A stretch of DNA of 64,000 bases from Variovorax sp. V93 (lineage in GTDB: Bacteria > Pseudomonadota > Gammaproteobacteria > Burkholderiales > Burkholderiaceae_C), in the NCBI RefSeq assembly GCF_041154485.1, contig NZ_AP028670.1, positions 930,001-994,000 on the forward strand, in the 5' to 3' direction. The notes beneath the pieces are model-generated. The model was not told the DNA's origin. It searched no databases and was given only the letters and a program-made list of their open reading frames with translations. Within the stretch, counting starts at the first letter, position 1; every line of letters begins with the position of its first letter. Of the stretch, positions 23,011 to 40,745 are shown in pieces. The position numbers were made by a program, and so were the translations under genes.

Positions 23011-23020
23011 GGAGCCCGCC

Positions 23021-24844: not shown

Positions 24845-24920
24845 GACCGGCATCTCCATCTTTCCGCTCCCTCGGTTTTCAACAAGGCGCATGTTGCGCA
24901 ACTCACCGGAGACACAAGCC

Positions 24921-26051
24921 ATGAAGAAATCTTCCATCCCGTTCCCGCGCGCCGGCTGGCTCGGCGCCGCCGCGCTGGTGCTGTGCGTTCCAGCCATGGC
25001 CGATGCGCTGATCGGCGTGTCGCTGCCCCAGACCGGGCCCAAGGCCCTGGTCGGGCGCAACTTCAAGCAGGGCGTGGAACTCGCGGTCAGCGAAATCAAC
25101 GCCGCGGGCGGCGTGCTGGGCAAGCCGCTGGAAGTGGTGTTCGAGGACGACCAGGGCGACAACCCGAACGGCGCCATCAATGCCGTCAACAAGCTGATGC
25201 AGGTCAGCAAGGTGCCGGTGATGATCGGCCCGCACTACTCGGTCACGCAGATGGCCACGCAGAAGACCTACTGCAACGGCAAGGTGGTGTCCATCACGGG
25301 CGGCACGTCGGTGGCGATCACGCACAGCGGATGCAGCTACGTGGTGCGCACGCGCTCGGACGACGACGTGCAGGCCCGGGCGCTGATCGCCTATGCGCGC
25401 AACGAACTCAAGGCCGGCGAGAAGACCGCGGTGTTCTATGCCAACGACGACTTCGGCAAGTCGGGCCAGGCGCGCGTCGTCGCGCAGATGGCCGCGCTGG
25501 GGCTGAAGCCCGTGGCGGTGGAAAGCCACAACCCGAGCGACAAGGACTATTCCGCCCAGCTCGCGAAGCTGCAGAAATCCGGTGCCGAGCTGGTGATCCT
25601 GTGGGCGCACGACACCGATGCGGCATTGATCCTGCGCCAGGCCAGGCAGTTCGGCCTGCCCTTCAAGTTCGCGGGTGCCGTGCTCTCCGAGGATGCGTTC
25701 CTCAAGCTGGCGGGCAGCGCGGCCGAGGGCTCGATGAGCGCGTCCTATTTCGTGCCCACCGATCCAAACCCCGCGGTGCAGGCGTTCGTCAAGAAATACG
25801 AAGCCAGGTACAGGATGGCGCCCGACGTGTGGTCCGCCACCTACTACGACGCGACCATCCTCGCGGCCAAGGCGATCAACGAAGCCAGGTCGGCCGATGT
25901 CGAGAAGATCCGCGCGGCGTTCTCCAGCGTGAACTACAGCGGCCTGCTGGCCGACTACAAGTGCGACAAGGCGGGCGACTGCAACAAGCAGGTGAACATC
26001 GTCGAGATCAAGGGCGGCCAGCCGGTCGTGCGCTCGGCCGTCAGGTTCTGA
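24921..26051 (+). CDS. Liv-type ABC transporter substrate-binding protein
   Basis: A 376-aa periplasmic protein. The signal peptide ends near PAMADA, and the mature N-terminus LIGVSLPQTGPKALVGRNF is typical of LivK-like proteins. VFEDDQGDNPNGAINAVNKL and FYANDDFGKSG follow. The start after CCGGAGACACAAGCC is well supported. It serves the LivH/LivM-G/LivF transporter of this operon. Ligand unknown; the surrounding enzymes suggest a short polyol, sugar acid or ketose rather than an amino acid. Confidence 0.9.
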   Translation: MKKSSIPFPRAGWLGAAALVLCVPAMADALIGVSLPQTGPKALVGRNFKQGVELAVSEINAAGGVLGKPLEVVFEDDQGDNPNGAINAVNKLMQVSKVPVMIGPHYSVTQMATQKTYCNGKVVSITGGTSVAITHSGCSYVVRTRSDDDVQARALIAYARNELKAGEKTAVFYANDDFGKSGQARVVAQMAALGLKPVAVESHNPSDKDYSAQLAKLQKSGAELVILWAHDTDAALILRQARQFGLPFKFAGAVLSEDAFLKLAGSAAEGSMSASYFVPTDPNPAVQAFVKKYEARYRMAPDVWSATYYDATILAAKAINEARSADVEKIRAAFSSVNYSGLLADYKCDKAGDCNKQVNIVEIKGGQPVVRSAVRF

Positions 26052-26075
26052 GGTGGCGCGCATGCGAGGAAAGCC

Positions 26076-26828
<753 letters not shown>

Positions 26829-26848
26829 ACATCAACACGCAGTTAACG

Positions 26849-28255
26849 ATGGCCTTTCACAAATCCCTCGAACAAACCGCGCGAGCGGTCGAACTGCTCC
26901 TGCCCGAGTTCCGGGCGATCTTCGGCGAGCGCGCCGTCACATCGGCTGCGGTGCGCGCGCACCACAGCCACGGCGAGGGCCTGCCCGACCCCGGGCAGCC
27001 GGACCTCGTGCTGTTCCCCCTTGCGAACGAGGAAGTGGCCGCCGCGGCCCGGCTGTGCCATCGTGCCGAGGTGCCGATCATCGCCTTCGGCAGCGGAACC
27101 TCGATGGAGGGGCACGTGGCGGCGATCCACGGCGGGGTGTGCATCGACCTCTCGCGCATGGACCGGGTGCTGGAGGTCTCGACGGATTCGATGGACTGCC
27201 GCGTCCAGGCCGGCGTGACGCGCGAGCAGCTCAACGAACACCTGCGCAGCAGCGGCCTGTTCTTCGCGGTGGACCCGGGCGCCAACGCGTCGCTGGGCGG
27301 CATGGCGTCTACGCGAGCGTCGGGCACGGCCGCCGTGCGCTACGGCACCATGCGCGAAACGGTCATGGGGCTGACGGTGGTGACGCCCGACGGCCGCATC
27401 GTTCGCACCGGCACGCGCGCGCGCAAGTCGGCGTCGGGTTTCGACCTCACCCGGCTCTACGTGGGCAGCGAAGGCCTGCTGGGCATCCTCACCGAGGTGC
27501 AGCTGCGCCTGTTCGGCCTGCCGGAGCATGTGGTTGCGGCGGTCTGCCAGTTCGACAGCCTCCGCGCCGCGATGGACACGGTGATCGCCACGCTGCAGCT
27601 GGGTGTTCCGGTGGCGCGCATCGAGCTGCTCAACGATGTGCAGATGGACGCATGCATCCGCTATTCGAAGCTCGACGAATTCGAGGCACGGCCCACGCTG
27701 TTCATCGAGTTCCACGGCAGCCAGGCGGCCGTGGCCGAGCAGGTGGACATGGTGCAGGGCCTTGCCAGCGAGAACGGCGGCAGCGGGTTCCGCTATGCCC
27801 ACCGGCCCGAGGAGCGCTCGCGCCTGTGGAAGGCCCGCCACTCGTGCTACCACGCCAACCTGGCGATGCATCCGGGCTGGAGTTCGATGGGCACCGATGC
27901 CTGCGTGCCGATCTCGGCGCTGGTCGACTGCATCACCGAGACCGAGGCCGACATCCGCGAAAGCGGGCTCTATGCACCGATCGTCGGCCACGTGGGCGAC
28001 GGCAACTTCCACCTCGGGATCATCTACGACGACGCAGACCGGGCGGCGCGCGCCAAGGCCGAGGCGCTGGCCGAGCGTGTTGCGCTGCGCGCGATACGGA
28101 TGGGCGGCACCTGCACCGGCGAGCATGGCGTGGGGCTGCACCGCATCGGCCAGATCGAAGTCGAGCACGGCGAGGCGATCGATCTGATGCGCGACATCAA
28201 GCGGGCCCTGGACCCCGCCGGAATCATGAATCCGGGGAAGATGCTGCGCATGTGA
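26849..28255 (+). CDS. FAD-linked D-2-hydroxyacid dehydrogenase (D-lactate/glycolate oxidase GlcD type)
   Basis: A 468-aa flavoprotein of the VAO family. The FAD-binding half has PIIAFGSGTSMEGH and DPGANASLGGM; the C-terminal half has VGHVGDGNFHLG and the family signature TGEHGVGLHRIG, ending in MNPGKML. It should oxidise a D-2-hydroxy acid to a 2-keto acid and pass electrons to the respiratory chain or a cytochrome. It is last in the operon and its end overlaps the convergent molybdoenzyme gene by 32 bp. Confidence 0.88.
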   Translation: MAFHKSLEQTARAVELLLPEFRAIFGERAVTSAAVRAHHSHGEGLPDPGQPDLVLFPLANEEVAAAARLCHRAEVPIIAFGSGTSMEGHVAAIHGGVCIDLSRMDRVLEVSTDSMDCRVQAGVTREQLNEHLRSSGLFFAVDPGANASLGGMASTRASGTAAVRYGTMRETVMGLTVVTPDGRIVRTGTRARKSASGFDLTRLYVGSEGLLGILTEVQLRLFGLPEHVVAAVCQFDSLRAAMDTVIATLQLGVPVARIELLNDVQMDACIRYSKLDEFEARPTLFIEFHGSQAAVAEQVDMVQGLASENGGSGFRYAHRPEERSRLWKARHSCYHANLAMHPGWSSMGTDACVPISALVDCITETEADIRESGLYAPIVGHVGDGNFHLGIIYDDADRAARAKAEALAERVALRAIRMGGTCTGEHGVGLHRIGQIEVEHGEAIDLMRDIKRALDPAGIMNPGKMLRM

Positions 28256-30539
28256 CCGCCACCGGCGGCTCGAACGCGCGGATCGGCGGCAGCGCGCCGT
28301 CGTAGCGTTCGATCTGCACCGTGCTGAGCTGGCCCGCGCAGCCTTGCGCGAGCGACGAGGTGCCGATGTCGCGCGTCAGCACGTTGGGGTTGCCGTGCGC
28401 GCACATCGGGCGGCCCTGGTCGTCCGTGGCCGGGTCGTACCAGGCGCCGGTGGGCAGCTGCACCACGTCCTCGCGCATGTCGGCACACAGGTGCGCGCTG
28501 GCCAGGCAGGCGCCGATCTCGTTGAAGAGCCGCACGATGTCGCCTTCCTGGATGCCGCGCGCCGCGGCGGCGGTGGGATGCAGCGTGCAGACCTCGCGGC
28601 CGCGGCGCTTGCTGGCCTGGCTGTGGGCGCCGAAGTCGAGCTGGCTGTGCAGCTTGGTGTGCGGCTGGTTGGCAACCAGCCACAGCGGATGCTCGGCGGT
28701 CGGCGCGAACCTCGGTGCAAGCCAGGCCGGATGGCCCGGGCAGTCGGCATAGCCGAAGGCGGCGATCGCCGGCGAGCTGATCTGCACCTTGCCGCTGGGC
28801 GTGGGCAGCGGCGCGGCGGCGGGATCGTTGCGGAAGGCGCGCAGCATGCCGCCGTCGTCGTCCCGCTGCGGCAGCATGAGTTCGCCGCGCTGCCAGAAGG
28901 TCTCGAAGTCCGGTGCGTCCAGGCCCAGTGCCTCGAGCCCGCTGCGGGTGCGCTCGTACAGGTGTGCCAGCCATTCGCGTGTCGTGCGGCCCTCGCTGAA
29001 GGCCTCGAAGGCGCCGAGCCGTTCGGCCAGGTCGCAGAAGATGTCGTAGTCGTCGCGCGCCAGGCCGCAGGGCTCGGCGATGCGGTGCATGGCCACCACC
29101 ATCGGGTCGGTGGCCGTGGCGCCGATGTCCTCGCGCTCCAGTGTCATGGTGCTGGGCAGCACGATGTCGGCATGGCGCGCGGTCGCGGTCCAGGCGATCT
29201 CGTGCACGACGAAGGTGTCGAGGGTGCGGAAGGCCTCGGCCAGGCGCGCGAGGTCCTGGTGGTGGTGGAACGGATTGCCGCCTGCCCAGTACGCGAGGCG
29301 GATGTGCGGATAGGTCCGGCGCTGGCCGTTGTAGTCGAAGGGCTGGCCCGGATTGAGCAGCATGTCGCTGATGCGCGCGACCGGAATGAACTCCTTCACG
29401 CCGTTGCTGCCCTGGGGCAGCGCGGCCGCCGGCACGGCGTTGTTGCGCTTGCCGTAGTGCGCGAGCGTGCCCAGCGCGTAGTTGTAGCCGCCGCCGGGCA
29501 GGCCCAGCTGGCCGAGCGCCGCGGCCAGCACCGCGCCCATCCAGACCGGCTGCTCGCCATGCTCGGCGCGCTGCAGCGAGTGCGACACCACCACCAGCGT
29601 GCGCTTGCCCACGAGCGAGCGGGCCAGCTCGACGAGCTGCTGTGCCGGCAGGTCGCAGATCGGTGCGGCCCAGTCACAGCTCTTGGCCACGCCGTCGCTG
29701 CGGCCCATCAGGTAGTCCTCGAACGCGGCCCAGCCGTCGCAGTGGCTGGCGATGAATTCGCGGTCGTGCGCACCGTCGCTCACGATCTGGTGCACCAGCG
29801 CCAGCATCAGCGCCGTGTCGGTGTTGGGCCTGGCGGCGAGCCACTCGAACTGCGCCTCGTCGGGCAGGTCGCTCCGGAGCGGGCTGATGCAGACGAAGCG
29901 GCAGCCGCGCGCCGCCGCCTCGCGCATGGCGCCGCGCTCGACATGGCGGCTGATGCCGCCCGAGGCGATGCGCGAATTCTTCAGCGCCATGCCGCCGAAG
30001 GCCAGCACCACGTCGGTGTGTTCGACGATCTGCTCCCACGTCACGTTGCGGCGCGCCACCTCTTCCATCGAACCGAGGATGTGCGGCAGCATCGGGCCCG
30101 AGGCGCCGGCGCTGTAGCTGTTGACCGAGCGCACGTAGCCGCCGAGCGTGGTGTTGAGGAAGCGGTGCACCTGGCTCTGCGCATGGTGGAAGCGCCCCGC
30201 GCTCGACCAGCCGTAGGAGCCGCCGAAGACTGCACCGGCACCGTGCCGCTCCTTCACGCGCCGAAGTTCCGCGGCCAGCCGGTCGAGCACCTCTTCCCAC
30301 GGCAGGGCCGCGTACGCGTCCCGGCCGCGCATCGGATCGGGCCCGGGGCCGCGTTCCAGCCAGCCCTTGCGCACCATCGGCGTGGTCACGCGCGCGCGGT
30401 GGCGCAGTGCATCGGGAAAATTGTCGATCAGCGGGTTCGGGTCCGGATCGCCCGGATGCGGCTTCACCGTGAGCGTGCGGCCGTCCCAGGCGGCGGAGAA
30501 CACGCCCCAGTGGGCGCTGTGCGGATGGAAGGTGGGCAT
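28224..30539 (-). CDS. Molybdopterin oxidoreductase of the DMSO reductase family (BisC/TorZ-like)
   Basis: A 771-aa molybdo-bis(MGD) enzyme. The N-terminus HPHSAHWGVFSAAWDGRTLT and DPDPNPLIDN match BisC/TorZ/MtsZ-type S- and N-oxide reductases, which lack an N-terminal iron-sulfur cluster. Ser143 in NSYSAGA is in the position of the molybdenum-ligating serine. Further motifs are GGMALKNSRI, YWAGGNPFHHHQD and the C-terminal VANQPHTKLHSQLDFG. No Tat signal is seen, so it is probably cytoplasmic, like biotin/methionine sulfoxide reductases. The start at 30539 has no strong ribosome site. It likely belongs to the same minus-strand operon as the sulfurtransferase, 23 bp upstream. Confidence 0.85.
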   Translation of the reverse strand: MPTFHPHSAHWGVFSAAWDGRTLTVKPHPGDPDPNPLIDNFPDALRHRARVTTPMVRKGWLERGPGPDPMRGRDAYAALPWEEVLDRLAAELRRVKERHGAGAVFGGSYGWSSAGRFHHAQSQVHRFLNTTLGGYVRSVNSYSAGASGPMLPHILGSMEEVARRNVTWEQIVEHTDVVLAFGGMALKNSRIASGGISRHVERGAMREAAARGCRFVCISPLRSDLPDEAQFEWLAARPNTDTALMLALVHQIVSDGAHDREFIASHCDGWAAFEDYLMGRSDGVAKSCDWAAPICDLPAQQLVELARSLVGKRTLVVVSHSLQRAEHGEQPVWMGAVLAAALGQLGLPGGGYNYALGTLAHYGKRNNAVPAAALPQGSNGVKEFIPVARISDMLLNPGQPFDYNGQRRTYPHIRLAYWAGGNPFHHHQDLARLAEAFRTLDTFVVHEIAWTATARHADIVLPSTMTLEREDIGATATDPMVVAMHRIAEPCGLARDDYDIFCDLAERLGAFEAFSEGRTTREWLAHLYERTRSGLEALGLDAPDFETFWQRGELMLPQRDDDGGMLRAFRNDPAAAPLPTPSGKVQISSPAIAAFGYADCPGHPAWLAPRFAPTAEHPLWLVANQPHTKLHSQLDFGAHSQASKRRGREVCTLHPTAAAARGIQEGDIVRLFNEIGACLASAHLCADMREDVVQLPTGAWYDPATDDQGRPMCAHGNPNVLTRDIGTSSLAQGCAGQLSTVQIERYDGALPPIRAFEPPVAVTCAASSPDS

Positions 30540-30562
30540 GCGCGGGTCCGCGGAGCTTCCGG

Positions 30563-31432
30563 TCAGGCGGCCGGTCCCGTGGCGATCGGCGCGCCCGGCT
30601 GCGCGCTCCATTCGCTCCACGATCCGGGGTACAGCGCCGCGCCCTTCAGGCCCGCGACTTCCATGGCCAGCAGGTTGTGGCAGGCGGTCACGCCCGAGCC
30701 GCACTGGTTCACCAGTTCCGCGGCGGGCCGGCCGCCGGTGATGGCGTCGAACTCGGCGCGCAGCTGCTGGGCGGGCTTGAAGCGGCCGTCGGCGTCCAGG
30801 TTGTCCTTGAACAGGCGGTTCCTCGCGCCCGGAATGTGGCCGCCGACCGGGTCCATCGTCTCGTTCTCGCCGCGGAAGCGGTCGGGGGCGCGGGCGTCGA
30901 GCACGAGCTTGTGCCGGCTCTCGATGTTGGCGCGCACCTCTTCGTAGGACAGCGTCGTGACCAGCGATTCGCGCAGCGCGAAATCGCCGGGCGGCCGTGC
31001 CGGCGGCGCCTCGGTCGACACCGCGTGGCCCGCGGCTTTCCAGGCCGCGATGCCGCCATCGAGCACGGCCGCCGCGCGGTGCCCGGCCCAGCGCAGCATC
31101 CACCACAGGCGCGCCGCATACATGCCGCCGGCGTTGTCGTAGGCCACCACCTGGGTGTCGTTGCCCACGCCGATCGCGGCCAGGGTGCGGGCGAAAGCTT
31201 CGCGCGCGGGCAGCGGATGGCGGCCGTTGCGGCCGGTCTTCTCGGCCGAGAGCGCGTGTTCGAGGTGCAGGTAGAACGCGCCGGGGATGTGGCCCGCGTC
31301 ATAGGCCTGCTGGCCGGCGCCGTGATTGGTCAGCTCGAAGCTGCAGTCCAGCACCAGCGGCGGATGCGCGCTGCGCAGTGCCTCGGCCAGCTGCGCGGCG
31401 GAGACGAGGGTGTCGAAGGTCACGTGATTCAC
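30563..31432 (-). CDS. sseA: Rhodanese-type sulfurtransferase (3-mercaptopyruvate sulfurtransferase, SseA-like)
   Basis: A 289-aa protein with two rhodanese domains. The active loop VNQCGSGVTACH puts the catalytic Cys at 244; CGSGVTA is the mercaptopyruvate-sulfurtransferase form of the loop. HIPGARNRLFKDNLD is also characteristic. The GTG start at 31432 overlaps the stop of the TctC gene by 4 bp (GTGA), so it is translationally coupled. It should move sulfane sulfur from a mercapto acid to thiol acceptors, making persulfides. Context with a persulfide-dioxygenase-like gene supports sulfur catabolism. Confidence 0.9.
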   Translation of the reverse strand: MNHVTFDTLVSAAQLAEALRSAHPPLVLDCSFELTNHGAGQQAYDAGHIPGAFYLHLEHALSAEKTGRNGRHPLPAREAFARTLAAIGVGNDTQVVAYDNAGGMYAARLWWMLRWAGHRAAAVLDGGIAAWKAAGHAVSTEAPPARPPGDFALRESLVTTLSYEEVRANIESRHKLVLDARAPDRFRGENETMDPVGGHIPGARNRLFKDNLDADGRFKPAQQLRAEFDAITGGRPAAELVNQCGSGVTACHNLLAMEVAGLKGAALYPGSWSEWSAQPGAPIATGPAA

Positions 31433-32421
31433 TGGGCGATCTCCTTCATCAGCGCAGGCGTGATGGCCGCCTTGTAGCGGGCGATGTCGTCGACGATGAA
31501 GCTGCGGAAGCGTTCCATCGGCAGGTCGTGCTCGGTGGCGGCGTCCTTGCGGATGGCGTCGCGCACCTCGGGCGTCGCCAGCGCGCGGCTGAGGTGCTCG
31601 GACAGCAGCTTCACCACCGCCTGCGGCGTGCCCGCGGGCGCCACCAGCCCGTACCACTGCGTCACCGGCACATCCACGCCCAGCTCCTTGAAGGTCGGCA
31701 CCTCGGGGATCGCCGGGTTGCGCTTTTCGCCGGTGATCGCGAGCAGCCGCAGCTGGCCCTGGCGCACCTGGCCGACCAGGGGCGATGCGGTGGCGAAGAA
31801 GCTGTCGACCTGGCCGCCCAGCATGTCGGTGATGGCCGGACCCGATCCCTTGTAGGGCACGTGCAGCATGTCCACGCCGGCCTTCTGCTTGACCATTTCC
31901 ATGCCGATGTGTGCGGCGCCGCCGGTGCCGGTGGAGGCGAAGCTCAGCTTCTGCGTCTTCGCGGCATCGAGCAGTTCGCGCGCCGTTCTGAAGCGCGAAC
32001 CCTGGCTCACGAACAGGCCGTGCGGCGCTTCCAGGATCAGCCCGATCGCGGCGAAGTCGTCGGGCACCTTGTAGGGAAGGCTCTGGGGCTTCATGGCGGG
32101 CGAGACCGCGAGGTTGCCGCTCATGGCCAGCAGGATGGTGTAGCCGTCGGGCTTGGCCTTGGCCACGATGTCGGCGGCGATGTTGCCGCCGGCACCGGCG
32201 CGGTTGTCGACGATCACGCTCTGCCCGAGCGTCCTGCCCATGGCGTTGGCGATCAGGCGGCCATACAGGTCGCCGCCGCCGCCGGGCGGAAAACCCACCA
32301 CGAGCTTGACGGGCTGCTCGGGGTAGGCGGCCCGGGCGGCGGGTGCGGCCAGGGCCAGCAGGCTGGCGCCGGCCAGTGCAAGGGCGCACAGGCGGCGGAT
32401 CGGGGCGATGGTGTGCTGCAT
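31429..32421 (-). CDS. TctC/Bug substrate-binding protein
   Basis: A 330-aa binding protein. The signal peptide ends near APAARAAY, and the Bug motifs KLVVGFPPGGGGDLYGRLI, VIVDNRAGAGG and KPDGYTILLA follow. AGGAGACATGAC precedes the ATG at 32421. It lies between the lyase and sulfurtransferase genes in one direction, so the ligand is probably the organic acid degraded by this cluster. Confidence 0.9.
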   Translation of the reverse strand: MQHTIAPIRRLCALALAGASLLALAAPAARAAYPEQPVKLVVGFPPGGGGDLYGRLIANAMGRTLGQSVIVDNRAGAGGNIAADIVAKAKPDGYTILLAMSGNLAVSPAMKPQSLPYKVPDDFAAIGLILEAPHGLFVSQGSRFRTARELLDAAKTQKLSFASTGTGGAAHIGMEMVKQKAGVDMLHVPYKGSGPAITDMLGGQVDSFFATASPLVGQVRQGQLRLLAITGEKRNPAIPEVPTFKELGVDVPVTQWYGLVAPAGTPQAVVKLLSEHLSRALATPEVRDAIRKDAATEHDLPMERFRSFIVDDIARYKAAITPALMKEIAQ

Positions 32422-32479
32422 GTCATGTCTCCTGTCTTTGTTCGTGCAGCGGGAGATGCACTCCCGCAGCGGGCGCAAT

Positions 32480-33838
32480 TCAGCCGAGCCAGGCCGCCTG
32501 CGCTGCCACGACACGGTCCACCGAAGCACCGCACTGGCCCAGGTAGGCCGCGGGGTCCGTCATGTCGCGGATCTCGTCGTCGGCGAGCAGCTGGCCGAGG
32601 CCCGCGTGCTGGCGCATCGCATCGGCGAAGCTCAGCTTCTGCGTGATGCCGTGCATCGAGGCTTCGTAGATCCATTCGTGCGCGGTCTGCTTGCCGACGC
32701 GCTCCGACAGCTCCAGCATCACGCGCTCCGAAAGCAGGTAGCCGCGCATGCGGTCGAGGTTGGCGGCCATCGCGTCGGCATTCACCTTCAGGCCCGCGAG
32801 CAGGTTCTTGGCCTGGAACAGCATGGCGCCGGCAATCAGGCAGCACTCGGGCAGCGCCTTCCATTCCATCTTCCAGGCGATGCCGTCGCGCTCGCCCTCC
32901 TGCACCATGCCCTCGACCATCATCGCGGCGTTGTAGCGCAGCGGACGCGAGAGGCCGGCCAGGTTCTCGGCCGAGGTCGGGTTGCGCTTGTGCGGCATGG
33001 TGGACGAGCCCAGCTTGCCTTCGGAGAAACCTTCCTCGACCTCGCCGAACTCGTTGCGCTGCATGTTGAAGAGTTCGTTGCCGATCTTCGACAGTGTGCT
33101 GCCCAGCATGGCGAGCAGGCCCGTGTATTCGGTGAAGCGGTCGCGCGCCGGTGCCCAGCTGATCGTGGGCACGCCCAGGCCGAGCTTCTTGAGCATCAGC
33201 GCTTCGAGCTCGATGGCCTTCGGGCCCAGCGAGGCCTGGCTGCCCACGGCGCCGGCCAGCATGCCGACCAGCACGCGCGGCGTGGCCTGCACCAGCCGCT
33301 CGTGGTGGCGGCCGAGTTCGTCGAGCCACACGGCGCACTTGTGGCCGAAGGTGATCGGCAGCGCCTGCACGCCGTGCGTGCGGCCTGCCATGGGCGTGTC
33401 GCGGTGGGCCACGGCCAGGCGGGCGAGTTCCCGGCCCACGGCCTGCAGGTCGCGCATCGCCACCGCATGGAATTCCTTGAGCTGCAGGGCGACGCCGGTG
33501 TCGACCACGTCCTGCGTGGTGGCACCGTAGTGCACCCATTCGCCGTTTTCCTTCGAGCAGGCGGCCTGCAATTGCTTCAACGCCGGCACCAGCGAATGCT
33601 TGATGCGGCGGATCTCGGCCGACATCGCGGCGATGTCGATGTGCTCGACCTTGGCCTTGCTCGCGATCTCCTTCGCGGCGGCGGCCGGGATGAGGCCCAG
33701 CTCGGCCTGCGCGGACGCCAGCGCGGCTTCGAAGTCGAGCCACTTCTGGATGCGGTTCTCCTCGCCGAAGATGGCGCGCAGTTCATCGGTGCCCCAGAGG
33801 TGCTGGAGCGATTGCATGTCGAAGACGGAAACGGGCAT
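32480..33838 (-). CDS. Fumarase/adenylosuccinate-lyase superfamily lyase
   Basis: A 452-aa homotetramer-type lyase. The superfamily signature GSSTMPHKRNP is at 277-287, with the catalytic serine at 278/279; GRTHGVQAL carries the conserved His155, and WVHYGATTQDVVDT is the substrate-loop box. Relatives include adenylosuccinate lyase and 3-carboxymuconate cycloisomerase. Because it is in a catabolic block with sulfur enzymes rather than purine or protocatechuate genes, I suspect a C-N or C-S lyase on a succinate-type adduct that releases fumarate. That last step is inference. It is 15 bp downstream of the FAD dehydrogenase gene. Confidence 0.85.
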   Translation of the reverse strand: MPVSVFDMQSLQHLWGTDELRAIFGEENRIQKWLDFEAALASAQAELGLIPAAAAKEIASKAKVEHIDIAAMSAEIRRIKHSLVPALKQLQAACSKENGEWVHYGATTQDVVDTGVALQLKEFHAVAMRDLQAVGRELARLAVAHRDTPMAGRTHGVQALPITFGHKCAVWLDELGRHHERLVQATPRVLVGMLAGAVGSQASLGPKAIELEALMLKKLGLGVPTISWAPARDRFTEYTGLLAMLGSTLSKIGNELFNMQRNEFGEVEEGFSEGKLGSSTMPHKRNPTSAENLAGLSRPLRYNAAMMVEGMVQEGERDGIAWKMEWKALPECCLIAGAMLFQAKNLLAGLKVNADAMAANLDRMRGYLLSERVMLELSERVGKQTAHEWIYEASMHGITQKLSFADAMRQHAGLGQLLADDEIRDMTDPAAYLGQCGASVDRVVAAQAAWLG

Positions 33839-33853
33839 GGAGGTCCTGGTGGT

Positions 33854-35332
33854 TCAGCGGAAGGTGAGGGGGTCCAGCAGCGCGCGCGGCAGCATGCGGC
33901 CTGGATTGAAGGTGTTGGCCGGATCCAGCGCGCGCTTGATCCGCGCCATGGCGGCCAGCGCGACCGGGTTCTTGTAGTGCATGAAGGCCGCCTGCTTCTG
34001 CCGCCCGATGCCGTGCTCCGCGGAGATGGAGCCGCCCAGCCGCGCGGCGGTGGCATGCACGACGTCGTGCACCGCCTCCTCGCGCGAGCGGAATTCGGCA
34101 TCGGCCATGCCGGCGGGCTTGCCCTGGTTGTAGTGCAGGTTGCCGTCGCCCACATGGCCGAAGCAGACGATGCGGATGCCGGGCATCAGCTGCTGCAGCG
34201 CTGCGCCGGCCTGCTCGATGAATTGGGGAATGCGCGAGATGGCAACGGCGATGTCGTGCTTGATCGACGGGCCTTCCAGCCGCTGGGCCTCGGGGATGTG
34301 CTCGCGCAGCGCCCAGAAGGCATGGGCCTGGCTGTCGGAAGCGGCGAGTGCGGCATCCGGCACCAGGCCGTCTTCCATCGCCGCGCCCAGCACCTCCTCC
34401 ACCGCGGGCCGCAGGTCCAGGCTCGCGGAAACCTCCGACACATCGAGCAGCACCGACCAGGGGCTCGCGCTGCCGAGCGGCGCGCGCATGCCGGGCGTGC
34501 CGTGCCGCAGCACCAGGCCCAGCGGCTCCTCGCCGATCAGCTCGAAGGCGGTCACGCGCTCGCCCACCGCATCGGTCAGGCGCGACAGCAGTTCCACCGC
34601 GGCCTGCGGGTCGCGCACCGCGGCCCAGGCCGTGACCACCTGGCGCGGCCGCGCAAAGAGCTTGAAGGTGGCGGCCGTCACGATGCCCAGCGTGCCTTCG
34701 CCGCCGATGAAGAGCTGCTTCAGGTCGTAGCCGGTGTTGTCCTTGCGCAGCGCGCCCAGCAGGTCGAGCACGCGGCCGTCGGCCAGCACCACTTCCAGGC
34801 CCAGCACCAGCTCGCGCGTGTTGCCGTAGCGCAGCACCTGTTCACCGCCGGCATTGGTCGAGACCACGCCGCCCACCGTGGCGCTGCCCTCGGAGGCCAG
34901 CGAGAGCGGGAACAGGCGGCCCGCCGCCTCGGCCGCGGCCTGCGCCTCGAGCACCGTGCAGCCGGCCTCGAGCGTGAGCGTGTTGTCCAGCGGATCCGCG
35001 CGGCGCACGGCGCGCATGCGCTCGAGGCTCAGCACCACCTCGGTCCCCGAATCGTCGGGCGTGGAGCCGCCGACCAGGCCGGTGTTGCCGCCCTGCGGCA
35101 CGATCGGCACGCCGGCGGCCGCACAGGCCGCGACCACGCGCGACACCTCATCGGTGCTGGCCGGGCGCACCACGGCGCGCGCGCTGCCGGGGAAGGTGCG
35201 GCGCCACTCGGCCTCGTAGCGGGCCCTGTCGGCGGCGGCCGTCAGCACGTGGGCAGAACCCACGATGCCGGACAGCATCTCGGCCAGCGCGTCGGTGGCC
35301 GGGGCGGCGGGAATGTCGATGGTCGCGGTCAT
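33854..35332 (-). CDS. FAD-binding 2-hydroxyacid dehydrogenase (D-lactate/D-2-hydroxyglutarate type)
   Basis: A 492-aa VAO-family flavoprotein. PIVPQGGNTGLVGGSTPDDS is the FAD-binding motif, and SEGSATVGGVVSTNAGG, FGHVGDGNLHYN and ISAEHGIGRQK follow. It resembles D-2-hydroxyglutarate/D-malate-type dehydrogenases more than GlcD. It is the first gene of the minus-strand operon 35332-28224 and is divergent from the IclR regulator, sharing a 175-bp promoter region with a strong palindrome. It may supply or remove the 2-keto/2-hydroxy acid that the lyase makes. Confidence 0.88.
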   Translation of the reverse strand: MTATIDIPAAPATDALAEMLSGIVGSAHVLTAAADRARYEAEWRRTFPGSARAVVRPASTDEVSRVVAACAAAGVPIVPQGGNTGLVGGSTPDDSGTEVVLSLERMRAVRRADPLDNTLTLEAGCTVLEAQAAAEAAGRLFPLSLASEGSATVGGVVSTNAGGEQVLRYGNTRELVLGLEVVLADGRVLDLLGALRKDNTGYDLKQLFIGGEGTLGIVTAATFKLFARPRQVVTAWAAVRDPQAAVELLSRLTDAVGERVTAFELIGEEPLGLVLRHGTPGMRAPLGSASPWSVLLDVSEVSASLDLRPAVEEVLGAAMEDGLVPDAALAASDSQAHAFWALREHIPEAQRLEGPSIKHDIAVAISRIPQFIEQAGAALQQLMPGIRIVCFGHVGDGNLHYNQGKPAGMADAEFRSREEAVHDVVHATAARLGGSISAEHGIGRQKQAAFMHYKNPVALAAMARIKRALDPANTFNPGRMLPRALLDPLTFR

Positions 35333-35397
35333 GCAGAAGGCGGGTGGGCTTCTCGGCCAAGCTGGCACGAGGGCAGGAATGTCTCTTTGTCGATTTG

Positions 35398-35422
35398 CTG
35401 TATTTCATTGATTGAAATACAG
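35398..35422. promoter_or_regulatory. Perfect palindrome in the IclR divergent promoter
   Basis: CTGTATTTCA (35398-35407) and TGAAATACAG (35413-35422) are exact inverted 10-bp arms around TTGAT. It lies in an AT-rich patch between the FAD dehydrogenase and iclR genes. A related ATTTCATT element occurs at 37260-37276. IclR-family regulators bind such palindromes, so this is probably the operator of both divergent units. Confidence 0.7.
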
Positions 35423-35507
35423 TTCAATAAACAAAATTCTAGGCGGGCGCGCGACGCACTGTCAACCGGGTCGGTCCCGACGCGGCAATCGCACACAATC
35501 TGCTCCC

Positions 35508-36329
35508 ATGAGATCTACCCCTGCTTCGAAGAAGACATCGGACGCGGCCCCGGTTCGCAAGACGGCGCGGCGCGCATCGGACGCCGCCTCGCCCGTCGAG
35601 GCGCCGGCTCCCGAGGTGGCGCCCAGTGCGCCGCAGCCGCCCTCCGGCGTGCTCGAGCGCGGCCTGTCGATCCTCGAATGCTTCACCGAAGACCGGCTGC
35701 GCCTGAAGCTGCGCGAGCTGGCCGACTGCACGGGCCTGGACAAGGCCACGCTGCTGCGGCTGCTCGGCGTGCTGGTGCGCGCCCGCATGGTCCACCGCTT
35801 CGACGACGGCGCCTACGCGCCCGGCCCGGCGCTGCTGCACATGGGCATGCTCTACCGGCGCACCTTCGACATCGGCACGCGGCTGCAGCCGGTGCTGCAG
35901 GAGGTGATGCGGCAGACCGGCGAGACGGTGGCCTTCTACGTGCGCGACGGCGACGAGCGCGTCTGCCTCTACCGCGAGAACAGCAGCAACGAAGTGCGCC
36001 ACCATGTGGAGGTGGGCGCGCGGCTCAAGCTTTCGGCCGGCGGCTCGTCCTCGCACGTGCTGCGCTATTTCACGGGCGGCAGCACGCCGCATGCAGAGGC
36101 CATTGCGCGCGACGGCTTCGCCATCACGCGCGAGGAGCGGGTGCCGCAGATCGCGTCGGTGGCCGTGCCGGTGTTCGACAGCGATGGCGCCTTCCAGGGC
36201 GCGCTGGTGGTGATCGGCCTCGCGCAGCGGCAGAGCGCGACGGCCCAGCGCAAGGCCGTGCAGGTGGCGCAGAAGGCGCTGGTGCAGCAGGGCTTCAGCA
36301 ACCGCCCGCCGCGCGACTGGCGCCGGTAG
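35508..36329 (+). CDS. IclR family transcriptional regulator
   Basis: A 273-aa regulator with an Ala/Pro-rich N-terminal tail of about 45 residues. The winged HTH follows (VLERGLSILECF, then LKLRELADCTGLDKATLLRL), then the GAF-like effector domain with YRENSSNEVRHHVEVGARL and the SSSHVLRYF region. It is divergent from the FAD-lyase-TctC-sulfurtransferase-Mo operon and is flanked on the other side by the metallo-hydrolase gene. It is the natural candidate regulator for the whole 28.2-38.7 kb block. Confidence 0.9.
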   Translation: MRSTPASKKTSDAAPVRKTARRASDAASPVEAPAPEVAPSAPQPPSGVLERGLSILECFTEDRLRLKLRELADCTGLDKATLLRLLGVLVRARMVHRFDDGAYAPGPALLHMGMLYRRTFDIGTRLQPVLQEVMRQTGETVAFYVRDGDERVCLYRENSSNEVRHHVEVGARLKLSAGGSSSHVLRYFTGGSTPHAEAIARDGFAITREERVPQIASVAVPVFDSDGAFQGALVVIGLAQRQSATAQRKAVQVAQKALVQQGFSNRPPRDWRR

Positions 36330-36341
36330 CGCGCGCGGGGC

Positions 36342-37214
36342 TCACAGCCGGTCGACCGGGATCTTCAGGTAGGCGGTGCCGTTGGCATCGGGCGGCGGCA
36401 TGCGGCCCGCGCGCATGTTGACCTGCACCGCCGGCAGCATCAGTGCCGGCAGCGCCAGGGTGGCGTCGCGCGCCCGGCGGCGCGCGACGAAGTCGGCCTC
36501 GGGCACGCCGTCGCGCACATGGATGTTGCCCGCGCGCTGCGCGGCGACCGTGGTGCGGCAGGCGGCCTCCCGCCCCGCGGGCGGATAGTCGTGGCAGAGG
36601 TAGAGCAGGGTCTGCGGCGGCAGCGCGAGCAGCCGGCGGATCGAGCGGAACAGCGTGGGCGCATCGCCGCCCGGGAAGTCGCAGCGGGCGGTGCCCAGGT
36701 CGGGCATGAACAGCGTGTCGCCGACGAACACCGCGTCCGGGCCGCCGGCCGGGTCGGCGATGCGGTAGGCCACGTCGGCCGGCGTGTGGCCGGGCACGTG
36801 CAGCGCCTGCGCCTGCAGCCGGCCGATGGCGAAGGCCTCGCCATCGGCGAACAGCCGGTTGAACTGCGAACCGTCCGCCGCCATGTCGGCTGCATTGAAG
36901 ATGCCGCGGAATTCGCGCTGCACGGCGGTGATGCCCGCGCCGATCGCCAGCGTGCCGCCGAAGCGCTGCTGCAGCCAGGGCGCGCCGGACAGGTGGTCCG
37001 CATGCGCATGCGTCTCCAGCAGCCACTGCAGCTGCAGGCCCCGTGCCTCGACGTGCGCCGCCACGGCCTCGGCCGGACGCGCATCGGTGCGGCCGGAATG
37101 CATGTCGAAGCCCAGCACCGGGTCGATCACCGCGCAGGCCCCGGCGCCGTCGTCGACCACATGGGAGAAGGTGGAAGTGGCCGCATCGAAGAAGGAACGG
37201 ATGGACAGGCTCAT
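36342..37214 (-). CDS. Metallo-beta-lactamase-fold hydrolase (persulfide dioxygenase/Blh-like)
   Basis: A 290-aa MBL-fold protein. The metal motif THAHADHLSG (68-77), PGHTPADVAY and GDTLFMPDLGTARCDFPGG are characteristic of the ETHE1/Blh subgroup rather than true glyoxalase II; ETHE1-type enzymes oxidise glutathione persulfide to sulfite with one ferrous iron. The ATG at 37214 follows GAGGAA. It is divergent from the MmgE/PrpD gene and converges on the iclR gene. With the nearby sulfurtransferase, it suggests disposal of sulfane sulfur. Confidence 0.82.
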   Translation of the reverse strand: MSLSIRSFFDAATSTFSHVVDDGAGACAVIDPVLGFDMHSGRTDARPAEAVAAHVEARGLQLQWLLETHAHADHLSGAPWLQQRFGGTLAIGAGITAVQREFRGIFNAADMAADGSQFNRLFADGEAFAIGRLQAQALHVPGHTPADVAYRIADPAGGPDAVFVGDTLFMPDLGTARCDFPGGDAPTLFRSIRRLLALPPQTLLYLCHDYPPAGREAACRTTVAAQRAGNIHVRDGVPEADFVARRRARDATLALPALMLPAVQVNMRAGRMPPPDANGTAYLKIPVDRL

Positions 37215-37240
37215 GGGGCGGATTCCTCGCAACTCGTTGC

Positions 37241-37276
37241 ATTTTATATAATGATCCAGATTTCATTCAATAAAAT
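37241..37276. promoter_or_regulatory. AT-rich divergent promoter region with near-palindrome
   Basis: ATTTCATT-C-AATAAAAT (37260-37276) is an inverted repeat with one mismatched pair, preceded by ATTTTATATAATGA. ATTTCATT and TTCAATAAA also occur at the iclR promoter (35402-35431), so the two regions share sequence words. It lies between the divergent metallo-hydrolase and MmgE/PrpD genes and is a likely second IclR site. Confidence 0.5.
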
Positions 37277-37285
37277 TACCTTGCC

Positions 37286-38680
37286 GTGATCGCAGCTCCC
37301 ATTTCCGATGTCCTGCCGGAATCCGTGCTGGTGGCGCACCTGTTGCGCCAGGCGTCGCAGCCACTGGCCGCCGCCACGCGCGCGCGGCTCGCGCAGGCGC
37401 TGCTGGACTGGTTCACGGCCGGCTGGTCGGCGCAGGACATGCCCGCCGCCGCCACGCTGCGCGGCCTGGCGCAGACGCTGATGCCCGGTGCGGGCGAGGC
37501 GGCGCTGTTCGGCGGCCAGGGCGCCACGCCGCTGGCGGCCGGCTTCGCCAATGCCGGCATCGCGCACCTTCGCGAGATCGACGATGCGCACCGCGCGGCC
37601 ATGCTGCATCCGGGAGTGGTCGCGATCACGCCGGTGCTCGCGCTGGCGTCCTCGCTCGGGCTCACGCACGAGCGCGCCGCGCGCGCCATCGTGGCCGGCT
37701 ACGAGGTCGCGCTGCGCCTGGGCGAGGCGCTGGGCGCGCGCCATGCGGGCCTGTTCCATGCCACCGCCACGGCGGGCGCGGTAGGCGCGGCCGCTGCGGC
37801 CGGCATGGCGATGGGGCTCGATGCGCCGCGGCTGCACCATGCGCTGGGCATCGCCGCGACGCAGGCGGCCGGCCTCTGGCAGCTGGTCGACGACGATGCG
37901 CACGAATCCAAGTCGCTGCATCCCGCGTTCGCGGTGCGCAACGGCATGACGGCGGCGTTTGCCGCGCGGGCCGGCCTGCCGGGCGCGCGCGCCTTCTTCA
38001 CCGGCCGGCGCGGCATGTACGCCGCACTGGCGGGCGAGGGGCCGTTGGCAGCCGTCGCTGAAGGACTCGATGCGCCCGAGCGGCTGCACACCGCCACCAT
38101 CAAGGCCTGGCCGGCGTGCGCGATGCTGTTCACGCCGCTCGACGCGACGCGCGCGTTGATCGAGGAACACCGCATCGGGGCCGCCGACGTGCAGGCGATG
38201 GAGATCGAGATCTTTCCGCATGCGCTCAAGATCGCAGGCGTGCAGTGGCCCGCCAGGCCGGCCGAGGCGAGCTTCTGCCTGCGCTACCTGCTCGCGGTGC
38301 TGCTGGAGAAAGGAGGCGTGCTCGGCATCGCCGACACGGAAGCCCCCGATCTTGACAGCCCGAGCCTGCGCGCCCTGGCCGCGCGCATGCAGGTGCGGCC
38401 GAACGAGGAGTTCCAGCGCGCGTTCCCGCAGCGCCGCCCGAGCCGCGTGACCCTCATGCTGCGCGATGGAAGGCAGATCAGCGCCTACCGCGATCTGCGC
38501 CGCGGCGACCCCGAAGACCCGTACAACTGGGCCGGCCTGCAGCAGCGCATGCGCAGCTTCGCGCCCGCCATGGACGAGGCGCAGGCCGCCGCACTGGTGA
38601 GGTGGTGCGAGGGCTTCACCTCACCAGCGCAGGACGCCTTGCCCTGTGCGCCGGCCGGCGCGCTGTTCGGCGCAGCCTAG
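37286..38680 (+). CDS. MmgE/PrpD family protein
   Basis: A 464-aa protein of the 2-methylcitrate dehydratase (PrpD)/MmgE/IDS-epimerase fold. FANAGIAHLREIDDAHRAAM is the active-site loop region, and GYEVALRLG, HATATAGAVGAAAAAGMAMG and the C-terminal second domain are present. The start is a GTG at 37286. These enzymes dehydrate or isomerise hydroxylated tricarboxylic or succinate-type acids. No prpB or prpC is nearby, so a methylcitrate role is unlikely; it may act on an adduct in the IclR-associated pathway. Confidence 0.85.
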   Translation: MIAAPISDVLPESVLVAHLLRQASQPLAAATRARLAQALLDWFTAGWSAQDMPAAATLRGLAQTLMPGAGEAALFGGQGATPLAAGFANAGIAHLREIDDAHRAAMLHPGVVAITPVLALASSLGLTHERAARAIVAGYEVALRLGEALGARHAGLFHATATAGAVGAAAAAGMAMGLDAPRLHHALGIAATQAAGLWQLVDDDAHESKSLHPAFAVRNGMTAAFAARAGLPGARAFFTGRRGMYAALAGEGPLAAVAEGLDAPERLHTATIKAWPACAMLFTPLDATRALIEEHRIGAADVQAMEIEIFPHALKIAGVQWPARPAEASFCLRYLLAVLLEKGGVLGIADTEAPDLDSPSLRALAARMQVRPNEEFQRAFPQRRPSRVTLMLRDGRQISAYRDLRRGDPEDPYNWAGLQQRMRSFAPAMDEAQAAALVRWCEGFTSPAQDALPCAPAGALFGAA

Positions 38681-38736: not shown

Positions 38737-39669
38737 TCAGCCCGGCAAGCCGGCCTTGATCCGGGCCGCCAGGCCATCGGCCGCTGCGTGCATTGCATCC
38801 CAGAGGCACACGGCAGCACGCGTGTGGTAGCGGTTGAGCGAACGTATCAGGCAGGCCGTTCGCGCGAGCGTGGGATCATCGATGGCGACGGCGCCGCGCA
38901 CATCGAGGCTCAATGCCGTGGCCGCATTCACCACGGCCGTCATGCCCCGGTGGCGCACGGCATGCACCAGGTCTTCCTGGGCATCGGACTCGAAGCGGAC
39001 CTGCGGCCTGAGGCCTTGCGCGGCAAACAGGCTGTCGATCCGGCGGCGCATGGCGTATTCGGGCGGCAGCAGCGCCAGCGGCTCGCCGGCGAGTTCGGCC
39101 AGCGCCATGGGACGCCGCCGCCTGCCCGATCGCACGGCGACATAGGGTTCGGCAAAGCAGGGCTGGACATCCATGTCCGGGCGGTCCGACGCATCGAAGG
39201 TGACGGCGAAATCCAGGTCGCCGCGCGCGACCCCTTCGGCCAGCGCCGATACCGTGCGGCGGGACATCGAGATGGACAGGTCCGGCCAGCGCGCCTGCGC
39301 CGCACGCACCACCGGCGCCACCCAGCAGCTGCCGTACGACTGGACCAGGCCGATGCGCACGGTGCCCGAAACGGCAGCGGAACGATCGCTCGCGGCGCGC
39401 AGCGCCGCCTGGAGATCTCCCATGGTGGCGGTGATGCGCCGATGCAGTTGCAGCGCTTGCTGCGTGGGAATGGCCCGCCGGCCCACGCGGTCGAAGAGGC
39501 GCAGGCCCAGGGCCGACTCGAAGGCGGCGATCTGCTCGGACAGCGCGGGCTGCGAGATCGAGCATTCGCTGGCCGCCTTGCCGAAGCTGTCGGCCCGGAT
39601 GACTGCGTTGAAATAGCGAAGCTGGCGCAGCGAGACGAGTTCCAGCGGATCGCGGGCACGACGGGACAT
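38737..39669 (-). CDS. LysR family transcriptional regulator
   Basis: A 310-aa LysR protein. The HTH segment is SLRQLRYFNAVIRADSFGKA and ISQPALSEQIAAFE; the effector domain includes GTVRIGLVQSYGSCWVAPVV and a LALLPPEYAMRRRID loop as in CynR/NAC-like members. It is divergent from a TctC gene with a 98-bp gap, the usual layout for a LysR that controls an uptake gene. Confidence 0.9.
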   Translation of the reverse strand: MSRRARDPLELVSLRQLRYFNAVIRADSFGKAASECSISQPALSEQIAAFESALGLRLFDRVGRRAIPTQQALQLHRRITATMGDLQAALRAASDRSAAVSGTVRIGLVQSYGSCWVAPVVRAAQARWPDLSISMSRRTVSALAEGVARGDLDFAVTFDASDRPDMDVQPCFAEPYVAVRSGRRRRPMALAELAGEPLALLPPEYAMRRRIDSLFAAQGLRPQVRFESDAQEDLVHAVRHRGMTAVVNAATALSLDVRGAVAIDDPTLARTACLIRSLNRYHTRAAVCLWDAMHAAADGLAARIKAGLPG

Positions 39670-39767
39670 ATTGATAGGTTTTTCCGAAGAATATCGAGGA
39701 TAGAACCGATTTGATCAATTCCCTCCTATCCGTGACATTGGGATGTACCCAAGCAACCCCGAGAATC

Positions 39768-40745
39768 ATGCAGACACGCCGACACTTCATCCAAGGCGCC
39801 GCGGCAATGGCCACGGCCGGCAGTTCGTGGACCGCAGCGATTGCGCAGGGCTTTCCGGCAAAGCCCATCCGCATCGTCTGTCCCTACCCGCCCGGTGCCA
39901 CTACGGATGCGATCTCCCGCCTGATGGCCACGGCGCTCCAGACCACGAGCGGCGCCACGGTGCTCGTCGACAACCGCGACGGCGCGGGCGGCAACATCGG
40001 GACCGAGGCCGTGGCCCGCGGCGATGCCGATGGCTACACCCTGCTGCTCGGCGCGCTGGGGCCGCTGAGCGCGAACGAGGCCCTATACCCCCGGCTTGGC
40101 TTCAACCCCGGGCGGGACTTCAAGCCGCTGGCGCTCGCTGCGGTGGTGCCGCTGATCATGGTGGCGCACCCGTCGTTTCCCGCAGCCACGCCGGCCGAAG
40201 CTGTCAAGCTGCTGCGTGCGAACCCCGGGAAATACGCTTACGCATCGGCCGGCAACGGCACGCCGCAGCATCTCGCCGGTGAACTGTTCAAGCAGGTCAC
40301 CGCCACCGACTTCGTGCATGTGCCGTACAGGGGCTCGGGCCCGGCGCTCAACGACGCCATGGGCGGGCAGGTCCAGCTGCTGTTCGAGGCCTCGCCTGCC
40401 GTGCTGCAGCACATCAAGTCCGGGCGGTTGAAGGCACTGGCCGTCACCACCCGCGAACGGATCGCAGGCTTGCCCGGGGTACCGACATTGAAGGAGTCCG
40501 GCATTGATGCCGATATCGGCGGCTGGTACGGCTTCCTCGCCCCCGCGGCCACGCCCGCCGACAGGGTGGCCTGGCTGTCGGAGCAGATGCGGCGTGCCCT
40601 GGCCGATCCGCTCGTGCAGACGCGCCTGGCAGACCTGGGATCGCAGAAGGTCGACAGCTCGCCGCAGGCGTTCGCCCGGCTGATCGACGCCGAGCGGGCG
40701 CGCTGGGGCCAGTTGATCCGCGAACGCGGGATAAGGCTCGACTGA
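39768..40745 (+). CDS. TctC/Bug substrate-binding protein
   Basis: A 325-aa binding protein with a twin-arginine-like leader (MQTRRHFIQGAAAMATAG) and Bug motifs RIVCPYPPGATTDAISRLM, VLVDNRDGAGG and ADGYTLLLG. The stop codon shares one base with the start of the isomerase gene (TGATG), so the two are coupled. It is probably controlled by the divergent LysR regulator. Confidence 0.9.
   Translation: MQTRRHFIQGAAAMATAGSSWTAAIAQGFPAKPIRIVCPYPPGATTDAISRLMATALQTTSGATVLVDNRDGAGGNIGTEAVARGDADGYTLLLGALGPLSANEALYPRLGFNPGRDFKPLALAAVVPLIMVAHPSFPAATPAEAVKLLRANPGKYAYASAGNGTPQHLAGELFKQVTATDFVHVPYRGSGPALNDAMGGQVQLLFEASPAVLQHIKSGRLKALAVTTRERIAGLPGVPTLKESGIDADIGGWYGFLAPAATPADRVAWLSEQMRRALADPLVQTRLADLGSQKVDSSPQAFARLIDAERARWGQLIRERGIRLD

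Follow-up and report, generated by a model that had tools for sequence, protein, structure and literature searches.

A putative IclR-controlled gene set for the catabolism of S-(2-succino) thioethers in Variovorax

Described routes for succinated thiols and the Variovorax locus

The succination of thiols by fumarate occurs widely and has drawn medical attention, and enzymes of the ASL/fumarase family typically free fumarate from O- or N-succino groups. S-(2-succino)cysteine is the adduct of fumarate and cysteine, and S-(2-succino)-3-mercaptolactate is its hydroxyacid relative. S-(2-succino) lyases of the same family are known (available text of PMC9706529), and two related breakdown routes have been described, both via N-acetyl-S-(2-succino)cysteine (PMC9706529 and the accessible part of PMC12757645). 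The subject here is a gene cluster at positions 28224 to 38680 of a 64,000-nucleotide stretch (the window) from Variovorax sp. V93 (contig NZ_AP028670.1, positions 930,001 to 994,000). This cluster may be a regulon under IclR control that serves to break down S-(2-succino) thioethers, with S-(2-succino)-3-mercaptolactate as the likeliest substrate, an assignment whose chances are put a little short of even.

In the 2SL/yxe (scm) pathway, as far as the available text of PMC9706529 sets it out, a lyase-class-I enzyme frees fumarate from an S-succino thioether, as is proposed here; the preferred substrate of 2SL is the N-acetyl adduct, and its locus includes YxeL/YxeP and an ABC importer, features that are compared by description only. 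The window lyase carries the Lyase_1/ADSL_C domains and the signature GSSTMPHKRNP of lyase class I, to which 2SL belongs. The yxe-type families (acetyltransferase and deacetylase) were not found among the 10 proteins scanned in and around the cluster, which instead holds genes for a dehydrogenase, a 3-mercaptopyruvate sulfurtransferase (MST), BisC, MmgE and TctC. The mercaptosuccinate dioxygenase (Msdo) loci of Variovorax and Advenella are similar in that they deal with a sulfur-bearing C4 dicarboxylate and have a rhodanese alongside, and different in their thiol dioxygenase chemistry and LysR control (available sections of PMC5373536). In some Variovorax genomes BisC-clade copies and TctC also lie near Msdo. 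No Msdo lies inside the window cluster, no match to the cluster lyase, MST or D-2-hydroxyacid dehydrogenase was found in Msdo loci L104, L106 and L107 (L and G numbers denote loci and genomes of the comparisons), and the operator core described below has no copy in L103-L107. The cluster would work like the 2SL and Msdo pathways and fits neither, being no yxe-type locus and containing no Msdo, and there is a fair chance that it represents a third route for succinated thiols.

Other systems share parts of this logic. XcbD, of bacterial coenzyme M (CoM) synthesis, is the top NCBIfam model for the window lyase, and its name, 3-sulfopropionylcysteine synthase, points to a C-S bond enzyme; XcbD is biosynthetic, and no other CoM-synthesis gene was found in the cluster. 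Iminodisuccinate (IDS) is handled by an epimerase and a lyase acting on a C2-substituted succinate, a system that involves a nitrogen adduct and is not known to include sulfur enzymes. In sulfur oxidation by MST and persulfide dioxygenase the same two enzyme types act in sequence, whereas here a C-S lyase and a 2-hydroxyacid dehydrogenase join them within a set that shares an operator.

Organisation of the gene set

The genes are listed below; start codons were chosen from the sequence, that of BisC being the ATG at 30539 and not the start of the long GTG open reading frame to 31106.

33854..35332, minus strand: FAD-linked D-2-hydroxyacid dehydrogenase (D2HGDH/GlcD type), gene 1 of the operon, in a reading frame open to 35368
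32480..33838, minus strand: ASL/fumarase-superfamily lyase, proposed S-(2-succino) thioether lyase (Pfam Lyase_1 and ADSL_C)
31429..32421, minus strand: TctC solute-binding protein (PF03401, 222.6 bits)
30563..31432, minus strand: MST-type two-domain rhodanese, active loop CGSGVT, GTG start
28224..30539, minus strand: BisC/DMSO-reductase family molybdoenzyme (S/N-oxide reductase), proposed thioether-sulfoxide reductase (TIGR00509 bisC_fam)
about 35508..36329, plus strand: IclR-family regulator, divergent from the operon (PF09339 and PF01614)
36342..37214, minus strand: persulfide-dioxygenase-type protein of the metallo-beta-lactamase fold (Blh model; 9g8t, 4ysk, 4efz)
37286..38680, plus strand: MmgE/PrpD-family protein, proposed epimerase of the substituted-succinate carbon (PF03972 and PF19305)

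On the minus strand dehydrogenase, lyase, TctC, MST and BisC follow one another consecutively, with 15 bases between dehydrogenase and lyase, 58 between lyase and TctC, a 4-base overlap of the MST GTG start with the TctC stop, and 23 bases between MST and BisC. Judged from this spacing, the five genes lie as in one operon, presumably a tight one. The persulfide dioxygenase and MmgE genes form a divergent pair beside IclR. All genes named in the first-pass annotation were recovered with Pfam and NCBIfam profiles, and the single IclR gene that it had placed at the centre of the block also stands, but there are at least two transcription units, with an operator at both. The source genome (G000) comprises 6.74 Mb in 2 contigs, and relatives of its lyase at 98-99% identity occur in Variovorax paradoxus and Variovorax beijingensis.

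Co-inheritance and synteny

The lyase is present in 12 of 101 genomes from the genus; among these 12 are the source genome and one more of its species. The cluster-type MST occurs in exactly those 12 (489-653 bits, versus at most 325 for the best other copy listed), as do MmgE (12/101) and the dehydrogenase (785-1094 bits versus at most 492 for others). BisC lies within about 3 kb of the lyase in the same 12 genomes, the alignment of the G294 copy covering 600 of 771 residues; six extra copies, BisC relatives of 70-89%, occur elsewhere in the genus genomes. An interrupted second MST-like copy in G281 (53%, L102) has no lyase, BisC or dehydrogenase match at its locus.

The lyase loci found number 69, of which 34 have a lyase at 75% identity or above, 13 at 60-75% and 22 a more distant one. 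Partners were counted within 10 kb or up to the contig end, at a coverage of at least 50% and an identity of at least 45% (36% for IclR and MmgE). In the group of 34, MST was found in 31 loci, BisC in 31, the dehydrogenase in 30, and MmgE, IclR and TctC in 32 each. The 13 intermediate loci contain MST (7), dehydrogenase (12), MmgE (11), IclR (9) and TctC (4), and the 22 most distant ones gave no partner gene at the set thresholds. The Celeribacter MSTs (34-36%) and the Campylobacter MmgE proteins go uncounted because they fall below the identity limits.

Gene order changes while the set is kept. In 3 of 6 Roseomonas/Pararoseomonas loci (L067, L071 and L072) the full set is rearranged as lyase, MST, TctC, dioxygenase, MmgE and dehydrogenase, then IclR and BisC. 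The order in two Celeribacter loci, where BisC and the dioxygenase are missing, is lyase, three transporter genes, MST, MmgE and dehydrogenase. Additional genes accompany some loci: a small AhpD-like CMD protein is encoded in fifteen cluster loci, a DUF2520/Rossmann protein beside MmgE in L037 and L041 (Ottowia and a Comamonadaceae metagenome-assembled genome, MAG), and an L-2-hydroxyglutarate-oxidase-like protein in L052 (173 bits, cut-off 299), and in L072 (Roseomonas aerilata) a TauE/SafE sulfite exporter gene at 17126-17899 overlaps the end of the dehydrogenase gene.

As controls, 20 loci of lyase paralogues of the same family at 38-42% were taken at 20 kb each, 19 of them from the 28 places L003-L030 (longer contigs being picked) together with G121; they were fetched at this length because the flanks of L003-L030 had originally been 1.5 kb. 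TctC is present in 19 of these 20 loci, and none has an MST, BisC, dehydrogenase, IclR, dioxygenase or MmgE. Judged by inheritance in the genus, synteny with rearrangement, the controls and the common operator, the gene set is a real unit. The first-pass annotation had named a lack of co-conservation as grounds for abandoning the grouping, and co-conservation held up in both the genus and the synteny counts.

A common palindrome, the proposed operator

Copies of one inverted-repeat motif lie in both intergenic regions.

35399..35421, no strand: perfect palindrome TGTATTTCA-N5-TGAAATACA, proposed IclR operator, between the IclR and dehydrogenase genes
37261..37275, no strand: second copy of the operator core, with 1 mismatch, between the divergent persulfide dioxygenase and MmgE genes

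The palindrome at 35399-35421, for which the mean in shuffled sequence is 0.00, has no other match in the genome when up to 3 mismatches are allowed. The core was surveyed in 47 loci including the window, with an expectation of 0.031 per stretch; these counts are not independent because many loci come from related species. It was found upstream of MmgE in 29/43 loci, of the dehydrogenase in 30/43, of the dioxygenase in 10/16 (the same stretch as for MmgE where the two diverge) and of IclR in 11/42. Upstream of the lyase it occurs in 8/47, all of them loci whose block starts with the lyase; the corresponding values are 0/41 for MST, 0/39 for TctC and 2/36 for BisC, and none of the 20 control lyases is preceded by it. 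One operator core precedes both transcription units in most relatives. IclR would be expected to bind this palindrome, and the gene set is apparently under joint control.

Identity of the lyase and of its partners

The window lyase scores 533 bits with XcbD. Three further members of its clade (L044, L067 and L073) reach 513.5-525.6 bits, L079 502.5 and the Campylobacter locus L086 461.6, while the 7 control lyases scanned reach 402-425 and all prefer the carboxymuconate cycloisomerase model PRK09053. The protein also passes TIGR00928 purB (361.9 bits, cut-off 326.2), though with fewer bits than on XcbD, and this probably explains why sources label its orthologous group 'adenylosuccinate lyase'. 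An identity as PurB was rejected because the same genome encodes a separate PurB (G000:C1:5303449) with 726.6 bits on PRK09285 (cut-off 446), where the window lyase has 80.5; the window lyase is probably not PurB. In a FastTree phylogeny rooted at the midpoint, from which sequences with a stop or shorter than 380 residues were dropped, the cluster lyase clade appears to share one branch with a 54-60% group, the Campylobacter and Rubrobacter sequences and 8 of the 20 controls. The sister lyases at 54-60% (L077-L084, L090 and L094) come mostly from Betaproteobacteria MAGs and may act on a related substrate; several lie beside Tct transporter genes, and four have an NAD 2-hydroxyacid dehydrogenase.

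MST acts on 3-mercaptopyruvate. The loop CGSGVT, in place of the CRKGVT of rhodanese, is present in 41 of 42 aligned MSTs, the remaining one having a gap (sequences with a stop were removed before residues were counted). The Celeribacter MSTs are the most divergent of those aligned, and the cluster MST at L073 passes the curated MST model PRK11493 (254.6 versus 250 bits). Another MST-like gene of the window genome lies at G000:C1:1755947, and the cluster MST is a distinct paralogue. For the persulfide-dioxygenase-type protein the nearest solved chains are 9g8t, 4ysk and 4efz (349-357 bits), and its metal motif (HxHxDH, second His, bridging Asp and third His) is invariant in all 16 aligned sequences.

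According to the available part of PMC12290011, MmgE/PrpD enzymes that have been characterised take C2/C3-substituted 1,4-dicarboxylates as substrates, and one of them is iminodisuccinate epimerase. The cluster MmgE resembles IDS epimerase 2hp0 (105 bits), and the residues listed in that paper as holding the 1,4-dicarboxylate are conserved in 43-45 of 45 sequences, positions having been placed by eye from a HMMER alignment; by the same placement no conserved Tyr falls where the catalytic one would. The dehydrogenase has the Pfam domains FAD_binding_4 and FAD-oxidase_C, and its nearest solved chains are 3pm9 (447 bits) and D-2-hydroxyglutarate dehydrogenase 6lpn (280 bits). TIGR00509 is by far the top model for BisC (878.7 bits), which also matches DMSO reductase 1eu1 with 611 bits. 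A role for MST as a helper of BisC was rejected, as each is retained without the other.

Loci of Msdo and of Campylobacter

Four of the six extra BisC copies (G245, G265, G294 and G239) lie within about 5 kb of an Msdo homologue, an identification that rests on a match to 8vni (342 bits, full length, G245 protein). Loci L104, L106 and L107 (Variovorax G239, G245 and G294) encode Msdo, a four-domain rhodanese, a MetC-like PLP enzyme, an AstE/AspA-type hydrolase, TctC and a BisC-clade enzyme; the MetC-like gene of L106 reads as two open reading frames. A rhodanese and a cystathionine beta-lyase beside Msdo have been published for Variovorax B4 and Advenella (available sections of PMC5373536). 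The gene content of L104, L106 and L107 suggests that mercaptosuccinate is made there from (N-acyl) S-(2-succino)cysteine. In L032 and L072 the cluster has Msdo and a rhodanese at distances of 3.5 and 5 kb, and L072 also carries an AstE/AspA gene. The Msdo homologue of the window genome (81%) is located outside the cluster, at G000:C1:4143097.

Eight Campylobacter loci (L086 at 6167-12712, L088, L089, L091, L092, L093, L098 and L099) have a lyase at 44-50%, with a YheO-type regulator, RidA, DcuC, a MetC-like enzyme and MmgE, families that were named for L086. L093 and L098 encode the lyase in a split frame, and the MetC-like enzymes are 44-48% identical to that of Msdo locus L107. This gene set would suit S-(2-succino)cysteine and is a candidate catabolic operon.

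Proposed pathway

What follows, in its reactions, step order and exact substrate alike, is a reading of sequence. The lyase and MmgE families point to a substituted succinate as substrate, and MST together with the persulfide-dioxygenase-type protein point to a sulfur compound. TctC would capture the S-(2-succino) acid, and the BisC-type enzyme would reduce its thioether sulfoxide. The D-2-hydroxyacid dehydrogenase is proposed to oxidise the lactate half to the 2-oxo acid, and the MmgE/PrpD protein to act as an epimerase on the succinate carbon. The lyase could then eliminate fumarate and free 3-mercaptopyruvate, from which MST would transfer the sulfur to a thiol, releasing pyruvate, so that the dioxygenase may oxidise the persulfide to sulfite. 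A thioether of succinate and mercaptolactate is favoured because MST, dehydrogenase, lyase, MmgE and dioxygenase all find a use. That the substrates are S-succino thioethers in general is judged slightly better than an even bet, and S-(2-succino)-3-mercaptolactate itself is a tentative choice that has the balance against it. The first-pass annotation had proposed that a sulfur-bearing dicarboxylic acid is imported, its sulfoxide reduced and its C-S bond cleaved by the lyase, followed by sulfane transfer and formation of sulfite; this general outline fits, but it gave no role to the dehydrogenase or MmgE and named neither a specific substrate nor the operator.

In a broader and somewhat doubtful view, the cluster would be part of a third bacterial route for fumarate-damaged thiols. 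It would then be a stereochemically complete regulon mineralising S-(2-succino)-3-mercaptolactate. Its enzymes would be an epimerase for the succinate carbon, a D-type 2-hydroxyacid oxidase (joined by an L-type one in a single species), a sulfoxide reductase, the lyase, MST and the persulfide dioxygenase. The Msdo sister loci, with Msdo, a MetC-like beta-lyase, an AstE/AspA-like deacylase and BisC, would in turn degrade S-(2-succino)cysteine via mercaptosuccinate, so that Msdo would be supplied with substrate from a natural source.

Evidence against the pathway and alternative explanations

A number of observations weigh against the proposed route. The 12 genomes of the genus may partly share descent, so that their co-occurrence does not amount to 12 independent events. 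TctA and TctB are absent from the window cluster. The persulfide dioxygenase was found in 9/34 loci with a lyase at 75% or above and in 6/13 of the 60-75% group, in which BisC is present in 4/13. Three of the six Roseomonas-group loci are without MST, and two of these also without BisC and IclR; L037 and L041 gave no D2HDH match; and the set is missing beside the lyases of Paracidovorax cattleyae/oryzae (82-84%, L044 and L046, 3-4 kb of upstream sequence) and of P. konjaci (61%, L076). TauE/SafE lies near the cluster in L072 and in no other locus examined, Msdo does so in only 2 of the 69 lyase loci, and no Msdo was found near the extra BisC copies of G222 and G281.

Model scores and residues add to these points. 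The lyase stays under the curated XcbD cut-off of 600, BisC under that of TIGR00509 (1017.55), the dioxygenase under that of Blh (343.7 bits over the dioxygenase part, cut-off 625), and the window MST, with 139 bits, under that of PRK11493. This MST has Met where human MST has Arg, which we take to be the second substrate arginine; none of the 42 aligned MSTs has Arg at that position, and only L073 and L075 have one nearby. S-(2-succino)-3-mercaptolactate was not found in the literature searched, and the available part of a 2025 paper on S-(2-succino)cysteine mentions no mercaptosuccinate, mercaptopyruvate or mercaptolactate (PMC12757645). The gene combination was likewise not found in open-licence literature on mercaptolactate routes, on clusters of MST with biotin sulfoxide reductase and on the Campylobacter locus tags Cj1388-Cj1395, which is no proof that it is unpublished.

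It could be argued that the substrate is S-(2-succino)cysteine, which general cell enzymes would deaminate, leaving the resulting 2-oxo or 2-hydroxy acid to the cluster with otherwise the same chemistry. This adduct and S-(2-succino) lyases are known (available text of PMC9706529), the Campylobacter relative carries MetC-like and RidA genes, and the extra BisC copies accompany Msdo, MetC-like and AstE/AspA genes. However, no aminotransferase, amino-acid oxidase, acetyltransferase or ABC amino-acid importer is among the identified cluster genes, and the importer part of the cluster is TctC, so that this explanation is considered unlikely. Less probable still is that the lyase cleaves mercaptosuccinate to fumarate and sulfide, or thiodisuccinate to fumarate and mercaptosuccinate, with MST and dioxygenase only detoxifying the sulfide and the dehydrogenase acting on D-malate or another product. 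The proximity of Msdo in L032 and L072 speaks for it, as does the elimination of sulfide from mercaptosuccinate, yielding fumarate, that the available text of PMC5373536 mentions for Rhodopseudomonas BB1, but the MST with its conserved CGSGVT loop and a dedicated 2-hydroxyacid dehydrogenase in 30/34 loci would be left unexplained. Mercaptosuccinate had been among the substrates suggested by the first-pass annotation; it is now less likely to be that of the cluster, since its published route, in the same text, uses Msdo, whose homologue lies elsewhere in the genome, and for this reason it was rejected as main substrate. Thiodipropionate, suggested alongside it, has a separate published route in Variovorax (available part of PMC6370202).

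A pathway for a nitrogen adduct, in which MST and dioxygenase would be present for some other reason, is brought to mind by the MmgE/PrpD gene beside a fumarase-superfamily lyase, as in iminodisuccinate catabolism, and by the similarity of MmgE to IDS epimerase. The co-inherited cluster MST, the persulfide dioxygenase type and the likeness to XcbD point to sulfur instead, as do Msdo and TauE in single relatives, which makes a nitrogen substrate very improbable. An ordinary tricarboxylate or dicarboxylate cluster, whose MST would serve molybdenum-cofactor synthesis or tRNA thiolation, is hardly to be expected either. Clusters of TctC, IclR, MmgE and lyase genes are common in Burkholderiales, and a role of human MST in molybdenum-cofactor synthesis has been suggested (PMC9856076). 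Yet MST is kept without BisC in L064, L065, L066, L070, L073 and L075, and BisC without MST in L068, and TctC accompanies nearly every control lyase while MST never does.

Neighbouring features of the window

Genes on either side were considered as members of the unit and rejected. The convergent FAD oxidase (26849-28255) and the Liv-type ABC genes recur at orthologue level in L031 only; the same is true of the LysR gene that lies with a second TctC at 38737-40745, and this TctC finds elsewhere merely 30-43% matches. The plus-strand block at 18435-28255, which converges on the BisC gene, encodes a DHDPS-family aldolase, TctC, Dak1, Liv-type ABC components and a GlcD-like FAD oxidase; for its FAD oxidase and LivK, orthologue-level counterparts exist in L031 alone, which is a very close relative. 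At 52054-57069 a plus-strand open reading frame of 1671 aa shows coding-like GC periodicity. Another of 137 aa (46690-47103) lies within the stretch of lowest GC (0.618 for 46001-48000); by eye it resembles an AbiEii-like nucleotidyltransferase, presumably, and is possibly mobile.

Implications

The regulon as proposed would range over Burkholderiales and Alphaproteobacteria, with lyase-MmgE kin in Campylobacter. If the proposal is true, the 'adenylosuccinate lyase' label on the orthologous group would be corrected, and both the carbon and the sulfur of succinate-tagged sulfur compounds would be recovered. Succinated thiols would then be a regular nutrient for these bacteria, and their breakdown would provide natural work for Msdo and for a clade of BisC enzymes.

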